Of a stretch of DNA of 64,000 bases, positions 46,012 through 51,948 are shown piece after piece. The position numbers and the translations under genes are program-made. The DNA lies in contig NZ_CAIT01000006.1 of the NCBI RefSeq assembly GCF_000296815.2, positions 1,122,777 to 1,186,776 of the forward strand, given 5' to 3'. Below the pieces are notes generated by a model, which made no database searches, was not told the origin of the DNA, and saw only the letters and a program-made list of their open reading frames with translations. Source of the stretch: Fibrisoma limi BUZ 3 (GTDB lineage: Bacteria; Bacteroidota; Bacteroidia; Cytophagales; Spirosomataceae). Every line of letters begins with the position of its first letter. Position 1 is the first letter of the stretch.

Positions 46012-46101
46012 TTTTGTCATCCCGACGTCAGGAGGGATCTTCGGACGCCAGATGGTATCCAACTTTTTCCGAAGATCCCTCCTGACGTCGGGATGACAAA
46101 A
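46012..46101. repeat. 34-bp perfect palindrome (MITE/REP-like hairpin)
   Basis: Arms 46012-46045 and 46068-46101, fully complementary, with a 22-nt loop. The arm begins TTTTGTCATCCCGACGTCAG and continues GGAGGGATCTTCGGA; close variants of this word are familiar as dispersed intergenic hairpins in Bacteroidota genomes. It sits between the SPFH and zinc-ribbon genes, both on the plus strand, and would form a strong RNA hairpin in any read-through transcript. Confidence 0.85.
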
Positions 46102-47299: not shown

Positions 47300-47754
47300 G
47301 GCGTTCTGTCTACGCTAACAATAAAAATATATACTACGCTTAATAAATTCCCGTACGTAACTCTTTGCAGAAGTTTGGCAACTTGTTTATGATTGTTGAT
47401 CGGTTTGAGCTATTCGAAAAGAAGCTTCAGGATTGAAGTAACACTAAACTACAACGTACTGAACTTTAGTTGAATATGGTTTAGTGAATTCGCTTACAAT
47501 ATTATGTTGGGTGCAAGTCTGTGCCGTTTTGTCAAGGCGGGTTTCGTGCGACAAATTGAACACCCCGCGTGGGTAGGTTTGGGCTTCAAATTCGGGGTTC
47601 CGGCTGACAGGCCAACCGCCCCGCAAGAGCAGATTTAGGTTCAGAGACGGATTTCGGGCGACAAAGAACAATCTTACACAAATTGTAACTTTCCACTATA
47701 TTACCAACATAAAAGCCCGCAACAGTTTAGCGACGTAACGGGCTTAGATGAACT
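47300..47754. repeat. Left end of the cassette array with partial structured repeats
   Basis: 455 bp without a gene, clearly AT-rich to about 47510. A core-site-like GTTGGGT lies at 47506-47512 without a visible left half. It is followed by the right-flank words shared by the array (GGCGGGTTTCGTGCGACAAATTGAACACCCCGC). A second copy of the words GGATTTCGGGCGACAAAG appears at about 47650-47667, and TCCGGCTGACAGGCCAACCGCCCC is a further related stretch. AAGCCCG/CGGGCTT arms at about 47713-47745 form a weak hairpin just before the first cassette gene. Confidence 0.6.
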
Positions 47755-48327
47755 ATGAAGCAAGAGATTTGTCCAAAAATACGAGAAAACTACCCGTTAT
47801 ACAAAACGCTGGTCGAGAAACATAAGAAACTTGAGGCTCAGCAGATTGTATTAGGCGAAAAGCCTAATAATAAAAAATGGCGAACCAAAGAGGAACTTCT
47901 TAACCATGATTCAAGAGAAGAGGTTATATTCAATGCAGAGAAACAGACGTATGGATTTAAGTATGGACTACGGCTGTTTGTCAAGGAGTTGCACGATCAG
48001 CCTGTGTTTTATTTTGATTCCGACGGCCCCAGCCATGACAACAGCGACGGAAAGACAAAACTTCTTGAAACACGAATAAAAACCCCTCACATTAATTTTT
48101 ATGATGAAATGGGGGTTAAGAAAGCCCGAAGAAATCAGTTCATTGAAGAAAATGAAGTCGTCTTGCAAAGCGACATAAATATAGGGATGCACTTATTCTG
48201 TGAAGAAGCCAACATTAACAAAGGTGGCAAAATCCCTGATATTTCATCGGACTTGCATCTGCTTCCTCTGACTCAGAAAACAGAACATGACGTACACGAA
48301 GGTGTTGATTTTTTAAATGAAAACTGA
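47755..48327 (+). CDS. DUF6978-like protein, first gene of a cassette pair
   Basis: 190 residues, AT-rich, no signal peptide or span. A basic helical N-terminus (KIRENYPLYKTLVEKHKKLEAQQ) precedes a beta-rich part with FKYGLRLFVKELHDQPVFYFDSDGPSHDNSDGKTKLLETRIKTPHINFYDEMG. The DG-PSH-N and PHxxxY-like pattern recalls DUF6978 proteins, which occur beside DUF1828 proteins. The stop overlaps the next gene by 11 bp, so the two are translationally coupled. The pair fills the first cassette of the array. A toxin-antitoxin or defence role is possible; nothing in the sequence proves it. Confidence 0.65.
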   Translation: MKQEICPKIRENYPLYKTLVEKHKKLEAQQIVLGEKPNNKKWRTKEELLNHDSREEVIFNAEKQTYGFKYGLRLFVKELHDQPVFYFDSDGPSHDNSDGKTKLLETRIKTPHINFYDEMGVKKARRNQFIEENEVVLQSDINIGMHLFCEEANINKGGKIPDISSDLHLLPLTQKTEHDVHEGVDFLNEN

Positions 48328-49177
48328 GCTAACAGACCTCTTCCAACAGGTCAAATCTGATTTTTGTAATCTTATGGATTACAAACTTAGGGGCAACACA
48401 CTCGAAATTATTACGGGCGTGAGTACCCTAACAAATCACTATGTCTCAGTATTCGTTAGCTTACAATCGGGCACTTACATTATATCCGATGGAGGATGGA
48501 TTGATAAAGGCTTTTACGACAATATTATCTCATCCGAAGATGAGGACGTTTTCCAACGTGTGGAAACACAGTTTCAGGCTCACTTTGACATTAGACAAAC
48601 GAAGCATAGAGATGGGACTAGGTATTACTTCAAAGCTGTAGAAAATCCTGAACTGATTTCCGTAATGGTCAGAGATGTTAGCCAATACGTCTCCGCGATT
48701 GTAAATAGTCAGGCTATTGCCTTCAACGAAGCCAAAGAGACCTCACAACGTGCTACGTTTTATCAGGATGTCAATACATATTTAAGGGAACATTATGGTA
48801 GCGATATTCTTGAACTCAATGGTTCTTTAAAGCGACATGGGGAAGAATTGGCCGCAATTCGTTTCAATGCTATTATTCGGAGACCAACCACTACTCACTT
48901 AGTGATGTATGTTACAGGCTACACAGCCCCTCTTTTTGTAAAAGATGCTTGTGAAGCAACCGTGAATTTTCAGATTGCGAAGAAGGACATACGAGTGAGT
49001 CGAAGTGGCATATTTCAAAGGTCTGCTATTGTGAATACAATGGCGAATGGATTCGTGCCAGTAAAAGTAAATGAGTATCTGGCGAATCTGGAAAAGGAAT
49101 TAGAGCATCCGCTGATTTCGTATCACTCTGACAAATCCAAAATACTGGAACAAATACCTGAGCGTGTGGCGGCATAG
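48317..49177 (+). CDS. DUF1828-like protein, second gene of the cassette pair
   Basis: 286 residues, soluble, AT-rich. The N-terminal region (LEIITGVSTLTNHYVSVFVSLQSGTYIISDGGWIDKGFYDNII) matches the pattern of DUF1828 domains, in which a short beta strand pair is followed by a 'DGG' segment. The rest (AFNEAKETSQRATFYQDVNTYLREHYGSD..., HLVMYVTGYTAPLFVKDAC) resembles the DUF1829-type partner region often fused to it. DUF1828/1829 proteins are found in mobile and defence-associated contexts without established function. The frame overlaps the preceding gene by 11 bp. The start at 48317 (MKTELTDLFQQVKSDFCNL) looks natural. Confidence 0.65.
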   Translation: MKTELTDLFQQVKSDFCNLMDYKLRGNTLEIITGVSTLTNHYVSVFVSLQSGTYIISDGGWIDKGFYDNIISSEDEDVFQRVETQFQAHFDIRQTKHRDGTRYYFKAVENPELISVMVRDVSQYVSAIVNSQAIAFNEAKETSQRATFYQDVNTYLREHYGSDILELNGSLKRHGEELAAIRFNAIIRRPTTTHLVMYVTGYTAPLFVKDACEATVNFQIAKKDIRVSRSGIFQRSAIVNTMANGFVPVKVNEYLANLEKELEHPLISYHSDKSKILEQIPERVAA

Positions 49178-49445
49178 GTTTTCGCTCCGCGTGGGCCAGT
49201 TCCGTGCGACAGGTGGCCGCCGGGTATGCAACGTTTACAACCCAACCATGCATGTGTGTAAATGTGCGCTACGCGCTCATCATCACATGGGGACGTTAGG
49301 TGAACAGGCCAAGCCGTTACTGGCGGGACGGGTTCCGGGCGACAAAGCGAACGCCCCGGCAGTTGACATTTATACTTGCATTTCCGAATTGGTGCTGACA
49401 GATCGTACGCTCTTTAATAATTACCTATCATTTATAGATTAATCA
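49178..49445. repeat. Cassette boundary repeat 2 (attC-like centre at 49240-49301)
   Basis: Centre: ACCCAAC (49240-49246), 4 nt, CATGTG, an apical GCGCTACGCGC hairpin, CACATG ending 49289, 5 nt, GTTAGGT (49295-49301). This is the R''-L''-loop-L'-R' order of an integron attC site of 62 bp. Around it lie the array's flank words: upstream TCGCTCCGCGTGGG and GTGCGACA, downstream GGCGGGACGGGTT and CGGGCGACAAAGCGAACGCC. No gene is supported in the 268 bp. Confidence 0.75.
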
Positions 49446-49748
49446 ATGAAAAAATCTAAGCAAAAACCAAAGAGCAGATCAATAGCTGAATTGGAAAGGC
49501 TAAAACAAATTCTGCTTTCAGGCAAAGCTCCTTCCAAAGCAGTTCCAGCCAAGAGAAAAAAGTTAAAAAGGACACCAGTGAAAAAATTTTTCATTTACAC
49601 TCCTATTGACCAACCACTGTCTGAAAAAGTCAATGAAATCAAAGCTAGAAACCAGGAAGCTCAAAAAACTTCATCCATGCGTGTATCGGAAAAATTAACC
49701 TCCTTTTTTATTACTGAACACGAAGAAGATACTATGCACCGAAAATGA
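49446..49748 (+). CDS. Basic hypothetical protein, cassette gene
   Basis: 100 residues, strongly basic N-terminal half (MKKSKQKPKSRSIAELERLK, then KRKKLKRTPVKK) and helical remainder (EKVNEIKARNQEAQKTSSMRV). No signal, no span, no recognised family; the charge suggests nucleic-acid binding. Low GC compared with the chromosome. It sits alone between two boundary repeats in the same direction as all other cassette genes. Confidence 0.6.
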   Translation: MKKSKQKPKSRSIAELERLKQILLSGKAPSKAVPAKRKKLKRTPVKKFFIYTPIDQPLSEKVNEIKARNQEAQKTSSMRVSEKLTSFFITEHEEDTMHRK

Positions 49749-50092
49749 TGGTTAACTTACATATGTATGTCGCGGTTTGCTTCGTATTTGCCGTGTCGTG
49801 GGCGACAGTCAACCCGTCCCGAAGGCAGGCAAACAACCCAACAAAACTGAATGTGTAGAGACAGAGGTCCTGTCCATTATTTGAAGTAGCTTAGATACCA
49901 TCAACATTCAGGGACGCTTGGTGAGCCAGTCTAAACCGCTACCGGCGGGGCGGGTTTAGAGCGACAGATTGACCGCCCTGACAGGTTGTTTTTTAATTTG
50001 CATTTTTACGTCCGTGTGACAAAGTGAACGCCAGAGTCGAGTATGGTTTATGTGGCCATTTTGCTTCCTTGTGACATTTTAACTAAATTTAT
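49749..50092. repeat. Cassette boundary repeat 3
   Basis: Centre: ACCCAAC (49836-49842), 4 nt, CTGAATGT (49847-49854), a long variable segment, ACATTCAG (49904-49911), 4 nt, GCTTGGT (49916-49922, a degenerate core). The outer flanks pair too: AACCCGTCCC (49811-49820) with GGGGCGGGTT (49947-49956). Upstream GTGGGCGACAGTCAACCC and downstream GAGCGACAGATTGACCGCCC repeat the array's words. A last partial copy (GTGTGACAAAGTGAACGCC) lies at about 50014-50032. No gene in 344 bp. Confidence 0.75.
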
Positions 50093-50512
50093 ATGAACTT
50101 GGTAGAGTTGGTTACAGAGTTAAAAAGGTTAAACTTCGAAATTGAGGTGCTGAAAAACATTTTTTCAGAGATCGATGCTGACAATGATGAGTCAAAAATT
50201 AAAGTAGGTTCGAGAGTTCTTATTAAGTGGGGACATGGTGGTGAAACTAAAGGGCGAGTTGTTGGAATTAGAAAAAGCGATGGTGCTTTTTATGTTCATC
50301 GAGATGGATACGTAGGAACTATTGGCTTAGGAATCAACAAGCCAGGACTATCAGAACATACTCTTGAAAATTTGTCTGTAGGTGCTTACAGAAAATTAGA
50401 TCAGAGACTATGGCATTCTCAAATTAGAGTTTCTGAAATTCAAGATTCAATAAAAGAGATAGTAGGCATGAATGATGATCAGTTTGATCAATTCTGCCGT
50501 AATTTAAAGTAA
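50093..50512 (+). CDS. Hypothetical protein, cassette gene
   Basis: 139 residues, soluble. A helical N-terminus (MNLVELVTELKRLNFEIEVLK) and acidic IFSEIDADNDESK segment precede a basic beta-like stretch (VGSRVLIKWGHGGETKGRVVGIRKSDGAFYVHRDG) that resembles a small SH3-like or KOW-like barrel, then a C-terminal helix pair. The barrel idea is an inference from alternating residues. No family recognised. It is the only gene of its cassette and is AT-rich. Confidence 0.6.
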   Translation: MNLVELVTELKRLNFEIEVLKNIFSEIDADNDESKIKVGSRVLIKWGHGGETKGRVVGIRKSDGAFYVHRDGYVGTIGLGINKPGLSEHTLENLSVGAYRKLDQRLWHSQIRVSEIQDSIKEIVGMNDDQFDQFCRNLK

Positions 50513-50889
50513 GACATCAGATAATCGCTAGAGTGGTCGGGGTCCCAGCGACAGGCAGCATGTCCCGAAAGCAGACTAACAGCCCGACGTAGCTAAGTGT
50601 GCAAAGGCATTAGGTACGTTCGTTTTGGCTATCTTGCTTACTCACCATCAACACTTGGGGGCGTTGGGTACGGGTCCACAAATTAGCTAGCAAGGCGGGT
50701 TACGTTTGTCAGGAGCGGGTTTCGACTGATTCGCTATACGTCTAGAGGTGCGGCATTAGGGATTTATTTCCGGGTTACGGGCGATAAAGTGAACGCCAAG
50801 ACAGTGAGGTTTAGAGCTTGTATCTACGGGTTCCAAATGACAAAGCGTTTTCCTTAACAGACCAAATTAGTATTTATACATAATATGCT
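50513..50889. repeat. Cassette boundary repeat 4
   Basis: Centre: GCCCGAC (50582-50588), 4 nt, CTAAGTGT (50593-50600), variable segment, ACACTTGG (50651-50658), 4 nt, GTTGGGT (50663-50669, a good GTTRRRY core). The flanks repeat the array words: TCCCAGCGACAGGC and TGTCCCGAA upstream; CAAGGCGGGTTACG, GGGTTACGGGCGATAAAGTGAACGCC and CGGGTTCCAAATGACAAAG downstream, so the right part appears as two or three partial copies in tandem. No gene in 377 bp. Confidence 0.72.
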
Positions 50890-51399
50890 ATGAAGTCTTT
50901 TGATCCACGATCTTTAATTGGAGTAGCATTAGGATTTGCAATCGCCTATTTACTGGATGGATATGCTTCTACTATTCCTTGTAGTGCTTTCGGCTATTTT
51001 TTAGCCAAAGCTTGGTTTGTCGATGATAATTCAAAGAGATTCATTTATCTGCTGTACGGCGTTGGAGCTTTCATTGTGGCATTTATTGGGGTATTGCTGT
51101 ATCATATACATTGGGGAGTTCCTGTCTTTTTCGCTTTGCTCATTGTAAGCATTGGAGTTGCAACTATGTGTCCTAAATGCGGTGTTTGGTGGAAGCGGAG
51201 ACTCGTCAAGGAGGATTATTTAGGTAGCACTATTCACCAAACAACAAGTTCAGAAAACAGACCGGCTTACGATAATCGAGGAATTGAAGTTGGTCGCGTT
51301 AATATTGATGTCCCTAAATTCAGTACTCGTAATAACTATTTGAAAAATTACTGCTGTACTAAATGCGGGCATACATGGAGCAAAAGTGTAACGAGATAA
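50890..51399 (+). CDS. Membrane protein with zinc-ribbon-like Cys pairs, cassette gene
   Basis: 169 residues. Three hydrophobic spans (about 8-24, 28-45 and 50-90 as one long or two short spans) are followed by a soluble tail with two Cys pairs: CPKCG (about 94-98) and CTKCGHTW (about 157-164). Together these could bind one zinc. Cassette proteins of this type are often membrane-anchored small proteins of unknown role. AT-rich. The next frame (51524) follows after a partial repeat, and both may belong to the same cassette. Confidence 0.65.
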   Translation: MKSFDPRSLIGVALGFAIAYLLDGYASTIPCSAFGYFLAKAWFVDDNSKRFIYLLYGVGAFIVAFIGVLLYHIHWGVPVFFALLIVSIGVATMCPKCGVWWKRRLVKEDYLGSTIHQTTSSENRPAYDNRGIEVGRVNIDVPKFSTRNNYLKNYCCTKCGHTWSKSVTR

Positions 51400-51523
51400 C
51401 AAGCGGCTTTGTGCTTTGTTGTTCGCTCCGCGTGGGTGGCTCTTGGGCGACAAGTTCAACGTTCCTCATAGGCAAGTAAAACAGATGAGGTTTGCCTCTC
51501 TTCTCGACACTACTGCATCTTTT
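51400..51523. repeat. Partial boundary repeat
   Basis: The words TTCGCTCCGCGTGGGTGGCTCT and TTGGGCGACAAGTTCAACG (about 51422-51461) match the upstream flank of repeat 2 (49182-49222), but no attC-like centre follows. It looks like a decayed or half boundary, which would make the genes at 50890 and 51524 a fused double cassette. Confidence 0.6.
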
Positions 51524-51760
51524 ATGGCCGATATTTTTGATAGAAACGGAAACAAGATTGGAGAAATTAATGATCCTGGTAGTTCGCCAGGAGGATGTTT
51601 GAGTATTGTATGTTTCATCGGTTTCGTCTTTTCTAGTCTTGCAGGCTGGAGTATTCTTGGTGAAGGAATAAGTTTTCACACTCGTACAGGGTATGGATTA
51701 ATTGCACTTGCTGTGTTACTTCTTTTTGGATTCTTTTATTCTTTGAAGAAAAACATATAG
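51524..51760 (+). CDS. Small membrane protein, cassette gene
   Basis: 78 residues from the ATG at 51524 (MADIFDRNGNKIGEINDPGS); ATG at 51485 would add 13 residues. Two hydrophobic spans (about 28-44 and 55-74), with a soluble N-terminal tail and a basic C-terminus (KKNI). The N-terminus with DxxGNKIGEI recalls short proteins of unknown function seen in mobile islands. AT-rich, same direction as the other cassette genes. Confidence 0.55.
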   Translation: MADIFDRNGNKIGEINDPGSSPGGCLSIVCFIGFVFSSLAGWSILGEGISFHTRTGYGLIALAVLLLFGFFYSLKKNI

Positions 51761-51948
51761 AGCCGGTTATGGGCGACGGACTGCACGGATCCAAGGAAGC
51801 GATTCAGCCAAACTATACTGAATGTGTCAAATGCAGCGGCTACATGCGTTCAGTAAAATAGCTTGCAGGCCATCAACATTCAGGGGTATTCGGCACAATG
51901 ACAAGCAACTATCCGGCCTCAAATAACAAAGTTGTCAATAACACCCAA
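51761..51948. repeat. Right-most boundary repeat of the array
   Basis: Centre: GCCAAAC (51807-51813), 4 nt, CTGAATGT (51818-51825), variable segment, ACATTCAG (51876-51883), then GGGTATTCGGC where the core site should be. The L boxes are identical to those of repeat 3, but the right core is degenerate. Upstream the word GGTTATGGGCGACGGA appears again. After it the AT-rich region ends and the SGNH hydrolase gene begins on the other strand. Confidence 0.65.

Follow-up and report, generated by a model that had tools for sequence, protein, structure and literature searches.

A probably orphaned array of gene cassettes from an integron-like system in Spirosomataceae, linked in relatives to a tyrosine recombinase without the IntI insertion

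Introduction

Integrons are a textbook means for bacteria to acquire and rearrange genes. The insertion specific to their integrase, IntI, is called necessary or essential for integron recombination in passages of two studies (PMC9668308, PMC8138268); the latter adds that the insertion is not fully conserved within its integron-like subgroup, and the former describes typical Spirochaetota IntI running in reverse orientation. In the passages considered here, the IntegronFinder 2.0 survey (PMC9024848) names few Bacteroidetes integrons and labels site clusters without an integrase CALIN (cluster of attC sites lacking an integrase).

Here we analyze a 64-kb stretch of the Fibrisoma limi BUZ 3 genome (the whole stretch, herein referred to as the window, is part of a 7.63-Mb genome in 14 contigs), in which the segment 47506–51890 carries six co-oriented, AT-rich open reading frames (ORFs) interspersed with structured repeats. 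A first-pass annotation, made from the letters of the window alone, had read this segment as an integron-like cassette array, a CALIN in established terms, and possibly as a distinct, related system. Matches to a covariance model trained on sites of other genomes, differences in cassette content between relatives, and the linkage of such arrays to a recombinase in relatives all support an integron-like and possibly distinct system, and the segment is very probably an orphaned cassette array of such a system in the Spirosomataceae. It seems orphaned because the window genome has only partial copies of the recombinase. Judged from sequence comparisons, the system is integron-like in layout, site structure, and exchange, yet it fails two of the IntI-defining features that we tested (the insertion and the TIGR02249 cut-off).

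Results

Structured Sites of a Common Form Delimit the Cassettes

The cassette island is set off from its surroundings by composition (G+C of 0.421, vs. 0.574 and 0.584 in the flanks), and its six co-oriented ORFs, as first described, are real (table 1). The sites that punctuate it were modeled twice: model R2 and its alignment comprise 21 sites, four of them from the window, and model R3 comprises 20 sites from other genomes and none from the window (at least two of its rows are identical to sequences in the R2 set). Searched over the 64-kb window, R3 matches four sites with E values of 1.6e-14, 2.9e-9, 7.4e-9, and 9.9e-6, and the sole further match up to E 10 has an E value of 3.7. These are the four structured centers that the first-pass annotation had located by reading; the box order that it proposed (R'' box, 4–5 nt, L'', variable center, L', 4–5 nt, R' box) is present in the alignments of relatives, and the degenerate cores that it reported are genuine.

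In most of the 14 loci that we read, the sites take a form of ~90 bp, CAGCCCAAC n4–5 L'' TGTAAAGG ~40 variable nt CCATCA L' n4–5 GTTGGGTG, and there are often several per locus. Lengths among 284 distinct sites cluster at 88–91 and 64–67 nt; the R'' consensus RYYYAAC is found in 221 of them, the R' consensus GTTRRRY in 243, and both in 198. Within the window, decay of the R' core is seen at sites 2 and 4, whereas RYYYAAC is departed from at site 3 (GCCCGAC) and again at site 4 (GCCAAAC).

The stem formed by L'' and L' is maintained through compensatory changes. Six of the eight pairs of the inner stem are changed on both sides in the R2 set and five in the R3 set, and the percentage of paired cells, the number of cells changed on both sides, and the covariation score were each reached by none of 500 shuffles in either alignment. 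Because the R boxes are fixed in sequence and the L boxes mainly in pairing, the sites are, by analogy with attC, probably recognized by shape. G–T pairs outnumber A–C pairs in the inner stem overall (167 vs. 73), a bias due to one fixed pair.

A DNA search with one frame (a site together with its conserved surroundings) gave matches in 15 of the 222 family genomes, and sites at E ≤ 0.001 were found in 53 of the 222, representing 8 of 36 genera. Order-wide, 26 of 390 genomes had sites at this threshold, and all 26 belong to Spirosomataceae. These genome counts are lower bounds, obtained under strict filters from at most the best 19 (family) or best 11 (order) candidates per genome, such that diverged sites in genomes beyond the family may have escaped detection. 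The window genome itself yields 22 matches (E ≤ 10; the weakest at 1.27) in seven clusters, three of which have an attI-like site by pattern.

An attI-like Site Bears Its Own Covarying Inverted Repeat

The GTTGGGT at 47506, which had been described as an isolated core, is real and is not isolated: it forms the core of an attI-like site, in which an inverted repeat that covaries in its own right is also present, and it begins 207 nt beyond the stop codon of the gene to its left. At related loci the attI-like core is likewise preceded by an inverted repeat at an almost constant place and by a GCGTACAATA-like sequence. The core lies 349–410 nt past the end of the recombinase match (see below) in 18 of 20 loci and at 810 nt in L137, and no convincing attI-like site was seen in L144; in L141 and L145 the core letters are GTTGTC/GTTGTG. 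The letters of the inverted repeat vary between loci and its pairing persists, with 90.8% of cells paired across 20 sequences (including that of the window), 8 of 10 pairs changed on both sides, and a covariation score that was reached by none of 500 shuffles.

Cassette Content Differs between Relatives at the Cores

The closest comparison is with Fibrisoma montanum (G115, NZ_QXED01000006.1), also of the Spirosomataceae. Its left flank is 90% identical to that of the window, and the alignment passes through the attI core and then diverges; the BLAST match reaches 72 nt beyond the core because the leader modules of different cassettes resemble one another. The right flank (92% identical) resumes directly behind the last core, and one site was found at the right array end in F. 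montanum. No recombinase lies between the left gene and attI in either genome. By eye, the first cassettes to the right of the F. montanum attI core (L157) resemble phosphoribosyltransferase-type and DprA-like genes.

A second pair of loci, L116 (genome G156) and L135 (Rudanella paleaurantiibacter), aligns in pieces of 89–95% identity (94.8% in the recombinase region); attI is identical through GTTGGGTG, and the first cassettes are then different. The two arrays nevertheless have one cassette in common, 99.5% identical over 603 of 603 bp and with both ends at a core, within which ungapped identity is 0.98–1.0 and outside of which it is 0.32–0.62. Additionally, two arrays of genome G198 have two adjacent cassettes in common (97.7% and 99.7% identical), the right end of this block lying at a core.

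A Tyrosine Recombinase Accompanies the Arrays

In relatives, a tyrosine recombinase of ~390 residues adjoins such arrays. Its motif occurs in 8 of 20 array regions of one set, as whole or partial frames (some regions may end short of the gene), and in four of seven regions of a second set (L040, L041, L043, and L044), again whole or partial. Searching named genomes with nine array recombinases gave 23 loci, from Spirosoma, Fibrella, Fibrisoma, Fibrivirga, Rudanella, a metagenome-assembled genome labeled "Cytophagaceae bacterium", and a record under the name Flavobacterium sp. SUN052. Up to 10 kb was searched on either side of the recombinase; 90 sites (R2, E ≤ 0.05) were found in 19 of the 23 loci, and all 90 lie downstream of the recombinase on the same strand, the first attC-like site being 594–3545 nt after the recombinase match. 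The four loci with no site are L139, L144, L146, and L148; in all of these but L144, the contig is short or stops shortly after the recombinase match. The Flavobacterium sp. SUN052 record (L132) holds a Spirosoma-type recombinase, an attI-like site, and one attC-like site; misnaming, contamination, or transfer is possible.

Across the 222 family genomes, sites and recombinase occur together in 36, the recombinase alone in 5, sites alone in 17, and neither in 164 (Fisher p = 4e-23, uncorrected for relatedness), with the recombinase, whole or broken, counted at ≥300 bits, a threshold chosen after the list was seen. Some of the named loci are genomes of this set (e.g., L128 and G115), and the two samples are hence not independent. 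In the window genome the array recombinase is present as partial frames only (C8:29590–30204 and perhaps C10:565688–565867), and at the window locus no integrase gene lies between the left gene and the attI core. Viral contigs gave distant recombinases only (11 loci, 25–53% identity in the best segment), and the only matches on plasmids (388 records) were below 60% identity.

Between the recombinase and attI, 17 of 20 loci carry a small ORF that runs on the opposite strand and has a motif common to these loci; it may encode a directionality factor or regulator. Across loci L126–L147 (e.g., L134:11148–11411, minus strand), it is about 75–95 residues long with the motif WDI[ED]GYPxYFF...LYR...YTQGYxLKSRF; no supported match to Pfam or PHROGs was found, with one sub-threshold Pfam match (E = 0.029) in one of five.

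The Recombinase Lacks the IntI Insertion

The first-pass annotation had suggested searching the genome for a tyrosine recombinase with the IntI-specific insertion; the recombinase beside the arrays of relatives lacks that insertion. The distance between the GKGxKxR and HxLRH motifs is 66–71 residues in 20 array recombinases (18 different; 23 loci given), as against 107 residues in 19 IntI (20 given), and in an alignment to the sequence of the IntI4 structure, 15 residues of the array recombinase stand opposite 57 of IntI4. Four array recombinases score 180–196 bits on TIGR02249 (cut-off 265) and 184–196 bits on the XerA model (cut-off 220). None of the 222 family genomes has a protein over the TIGR02249 cut-off, whereas 105 of the 395 phylum genomes searched do; at E ≤ 1e-60 the model matches 107 phylum genomes, one of which is of the window's class and none of its order. 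With a single exception, the genomes of this phylum sample that match classical IntI hence lie outside the window's class.

In a 44-row tree, the array recombinases form their own clade (100/99), which joins three long HARP-type recombinases (95/84) and is separate from IntI (98/98); the only further rows are two recombinases on long branches, so the sister group is not fixed. The structural comparison list for the array recombinase is headed by 2a3v (IntI4; Z 13.2, root-mean-square deviation [rmsd] 15.5 over 192 residues).

An Additional N-Terminal Domain

The array recombinase carries an extra N-terminal domain of ~110 residues. The N-termini of four array recombinases have no Pfam match; the domain is homologous to repeats in the long recombinase L034, which scores 24.8 bits on HARP (PF07443; cut-off 25). 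Predicted in isolation, the domain has a predicted local distance difference test score (pLDDT) of 92, whereas the prediction of the whole recombinase has a predicted template modeling score (pTM) of 0.43 and unreliable domain placement. Structural comparison of the domain gave no chain at Z 8; its weak matches include CASTOR1 (Z 5.7, rmsd 4.0, 75 aligned), an archaeal XPB (Z 5.3, 2.0, 55), and the SMARCAL1 HARP domain (Z 3.2, 2.5, 48). UvsW, XPB, and HARP domains have a common role in the recognition of branched DNA.

The long HARP-type recombinases L034–L036, which TIGR02249 had brought up, were themselves considered as the array integrase and rejected: no attC-like site (E ≤ 1) lies within the surrounding 18–19 kb, and they are for this reason regarded only as relatives. 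They come from two genera other than that of the window and have HARP-like N-terminal repeats; the gene beside them resembles, by eye, a single-strand-binding protein.

Cassette Contents and Leaders

From 150 of 161 sites kept in the alignment and further locus sites, some of them weak (E up to 1 or 10), we delimited 228 distinct cassettes. Of these, 219 contain an ORF of 60 residues or more and nine do not; the longest ORF lies on the array strand in 188 of the 219 and on the opposite strand in 31, and the median distance from core to ORF is 202 nt. This long leader contains [CT]GACA[AG] modules ~45, 95, and 150 nt after the core, with one further copy before the site. At least one module occurs in 212 of 225 leaders and at least three in 115, at a density of 2.56 per 200-nt leader versus 0.42 per 200 nt in cassette bodies (the bodies used for comparison being more AT-rich). 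In the window, such modules are seen at 47549, 47605, and 47659, for example, spaced ~50 nt apart. The conserved frame of ~180 bp that had been described around each center is thus real, but it is mostly leader with repeated modules and lies outside the recombination hairpin; its outer AACCCGTCCC/GGGACGGGTT, proposed on first reading, may form a further pairing.

The 46 cassette proteins from the named loci and the window match 29 Pfam families at E ≤ 0.001 (30 matches in all), 28 of which occur in one protein each and which include PIN, a papain-fold toxin family, and DUF6882. At least 16 of the 46 have no Pfam match at this threshold, PADLOC gives one weak match over the whole set, and one protein matches an IS110 transposase. 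Cassettes of ~385–450 bp in L138, L040, L112, and L120 have related copies within one genome; in some of them the array strand offers no convincing ORF, and they are possibly non-coding.

Features of the Window

In cassette 1, the overlapping gene pair (47755–49177) begins with a gene whose weak similarity makes it a candidate for a defence family. No attC-like site separates the two ORFs of cassette 4 at E ≤ 10. Left of the array, directly upstream of a zinc-ribbon gene, two perfectly matching 34-bp arms enclose a 22-nt loop in an inverted repeat (46012–46101).

Table 1. Array features in the window, in order of position.
Feature	Position	Strand	Remarks
attI-like site	47442–47513	+	Inverted repeat CACTAAAC (47442–47449) / GTTTAGTG (47479–47486), then TTACAATATTAT; core GTTGGGTG at 47506–47513
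Cassette 1, first ORF, 190 aa	47755–48327	+	Weak DUF6978 / PADLOC PDC-M24A similarity, under the Pfam cut-off
Cassette 1, second ORF, 286 aa	48317–49177	+	Overlaps first ORF; searches of Pfam, NCBIfam, and PADLOC gave no match (E ≤ 0.01)
attC-like site 1	49238–49302	+	Short class, 65 nt; core GTTAGGT at 49295
Cassette 2 ORF, 100 aa	49446–49748	+	Uncharacterized
attC-like site 2	49834–49923	+	90 nt; decayed core GCTTGGT at 49916
Cassette 3 ORF, 139 aa	50093–50512	+	Sub-threshold Tudor-knot similarity
attC-like site 3	50580–50670	+	91 nt; core GTTGGGT at 50663
Cassette 4 ORF, 169 aa	50890–51399	+	Uncharacterized
Cassette 4, further ORF, ≤114 aa	51416–51760	+	Uncertain start
attC-like site 4, right end of array	51805–51895	+	Decayed core (ATTCGGC, near 51888); G115 alignment resumes at CGGCACAATG

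Discussion

Alternative Explanations

The simplest rival account holds that the array is part of an ordinary integron or a CALIN, its sites being normal attC that a classical IntI mobilizes; the linked recombinase would then be a divergent IntI that has lost the insertion. The canonical R boxes of most sites, the scores that the four scanned recombinases do reach on TIGR02249, the place of IntI4 at the head of the structural list, and the prevalence of classical IntI in other classes of the phylum all speak for it; however, no family genome passes the TIGR02249 cut-off, the insertion is absent from every one of the 20 array recombinases measured, the same four recombinases score alike on the XerA model, and the array clade groups with HARP-type recombinases apart from IntI (in a tree with only two other recombinases). 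Model R2, moreover, detects no site at E ≤ 1 in 20 IntI loci (71 kb). We consider this account unlikely. The CALIN label is supported only in part: the array has no integrase at its locus, but the recombinase linked to such arrays in relatives is not an IntI by the tests made.

Two further explanations would dispense with site-specific cassette exchange. Homologous recombination between the repeated ~180-bp frames could in principle produce the differences between arrays, as leaders and sites are repeated, the left-flank match between the window and F. montanum runs past the core into similar leader modules, and older related cassettes often differ in their leader. Yet the left breakpoint lies at attI in both locus comparisons, and attI, by inspection, has little beyond the core in common with the attC-like sites; the clean 603-bp cassette, with its abrupt loss of identity at both cores, also argues against this mechanism, which we regard as very improbable. 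Hardly any weight falls on the idea that the repeats are ends of transposons or insertion sequences, repetitive extragenic palindromic (REP)-like elements, or regulatory RNA elements that play no part in cassette exchange: intergenic structured repeats are common and a transposase match does occur among the cassette proteins, but 314 of 317 sites in loci with two or more sites agree in strand, the sites accompany a recombinase and an attI-like site and delimit exchanged units, and a search of the 64-kb window at Rfam gathering thresholds returned one tRNA and nothing else.

Several results weigh against an integron-like reading or narrow what can be drawn from it. The number of pairs and the number of pair types, unlike the other stem measures, were reached by 70 and 309 of 500 shuffles in the R2 set and by 162 and 258 in the R3 set, and the two corresponding counts for the attI repeat by 70 and 182. 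The R boxes are nearly invariant, so covariation says nothing on their pairing, and in stem pairs 8–14 there are 57 G–T and 72 A–C pairs, such that wobble pairs favor neither strand. Linkage is imperfect, since no recombinase reaches 300 bits in 17 of 53 site-bearing genomes and 5 of 41 recombinase-bearing genomes lack detected sites. As for exchange, the F. montanum array meets contig ends ~2.7 kb beyond attI and 0.3 kb before the right junction, leaving its middle unseen; the left end of the G198 block is unclean (~20 nt after the core differ) and its inner core differs by 7 nt; and a single cassette with both ends clean was seen in one case only. The first-pass annotation had named breakpoints at the G/TT of the cores as the support to look for: gene content does differ between conserved flanks and the breakpoints fall at cores, but they can be placed only to within the common core, at which the G/TT position is not resolvable. 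Finally, the best structural match of the N-terminal domain is weak (T4 UvsW; Z 6.4, rmsd 2.0, 61 aligned), and its best Foldseek match has an E value of 0.16.

A Proposed Mechanism and Its Implications

We hypothesize that the integron-like system works as follows. The ~390-residue tyrosine recombinase, present in an ancestor or acting in trans, would have joined cassettes into the attI-like site at the GTTGGGTG core. The cassettes themselves consist of a leader, one or two genes, and an attC-like site. The recombinase would catalyze the exchange, the cassettes would pass through circles, and the substrate would be a folded single strand; the extra N-terminal domain, which weakly resembles HARP by the homologies and matches described above, may recognize the hairpin in place of the IntI insertion. 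The window array is probably frozen, because the genome retains only partial recombinase frames and two of its four cores have decayed. Whether the system goes further and is an independently assembled integron, with a HARP-domain recombinase not derived from IntI, a branched-DNA-binding N-terminal domain, a structured attI, and a small partner protein, is close to an even call that we would answer, if anything, with a cautious no.

A cassette logic linked to an insertion-less recombinase makes the need for the IntI insertion testable: what else recognizes the folded site? If the system is indeed an independent integron, cassette capture by folded sites arose twice. Surveys that rely on IntI and model attC may miss entire cassette reservoirs, such as that represented by sites in about a quarter of the genomes of this one family. 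The arrays are also a fresh source of uncharacterized genes, given the share of cassette proteins without a Pfam match. Among the literature matches listed, we recognized no description of such a system, and the IntegronFinder 2.0 survey (PMC9024848) is not one of the three papers in which "integron" and "Spirosoma" occur together. Cassette capture may have a second form, so far without a name.

Comparison with Known Systems

The Spirosomataceae arrays resemble integrons in their tandem rows of small genes, most of them in one orientation and every one with an imperfect hairpin behind it that has RYYYAAC/GTTRRRY and covarying L boxes, in the single attI-like insertion point near a recombinase, in exchange at the cores, and in the existence of arrays without a recombinase. 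They differ from IntI integrons in that the recombinase lacks the insertion and has the additional N-terminal domain; in that it lies upstream of the array and runs in the same direction, whereas the integrase of integrons is usually, although not always, divergent; and in the small opposite-strand ORF, the covarying attI repeat, and the long, module-bearing leader. Sites of the attI1 type are not known to carry such an inverted repeat.

Xer-type recombinases (XerA and XerC/D; NF040815, PDB 5hxy and 4a8e) are like the array recombinases in their catalytic and core-binding domains and are their best sequence matches in the PDB, and the NCBIfam scores of the array recombinases on Xer-type models are near those for IntI; the array recombinases are set apart by their linkage to cassettes, their extra N-terminal domain, and, in the four scanned, scores under the XerA cut-off. 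The long HARP recombinases L034–L036 differ from them in being 542–573-residue frames with several repeats and no attC-like site nearby, and have in common with them a group in the tree and homologous N-terminal repeats.

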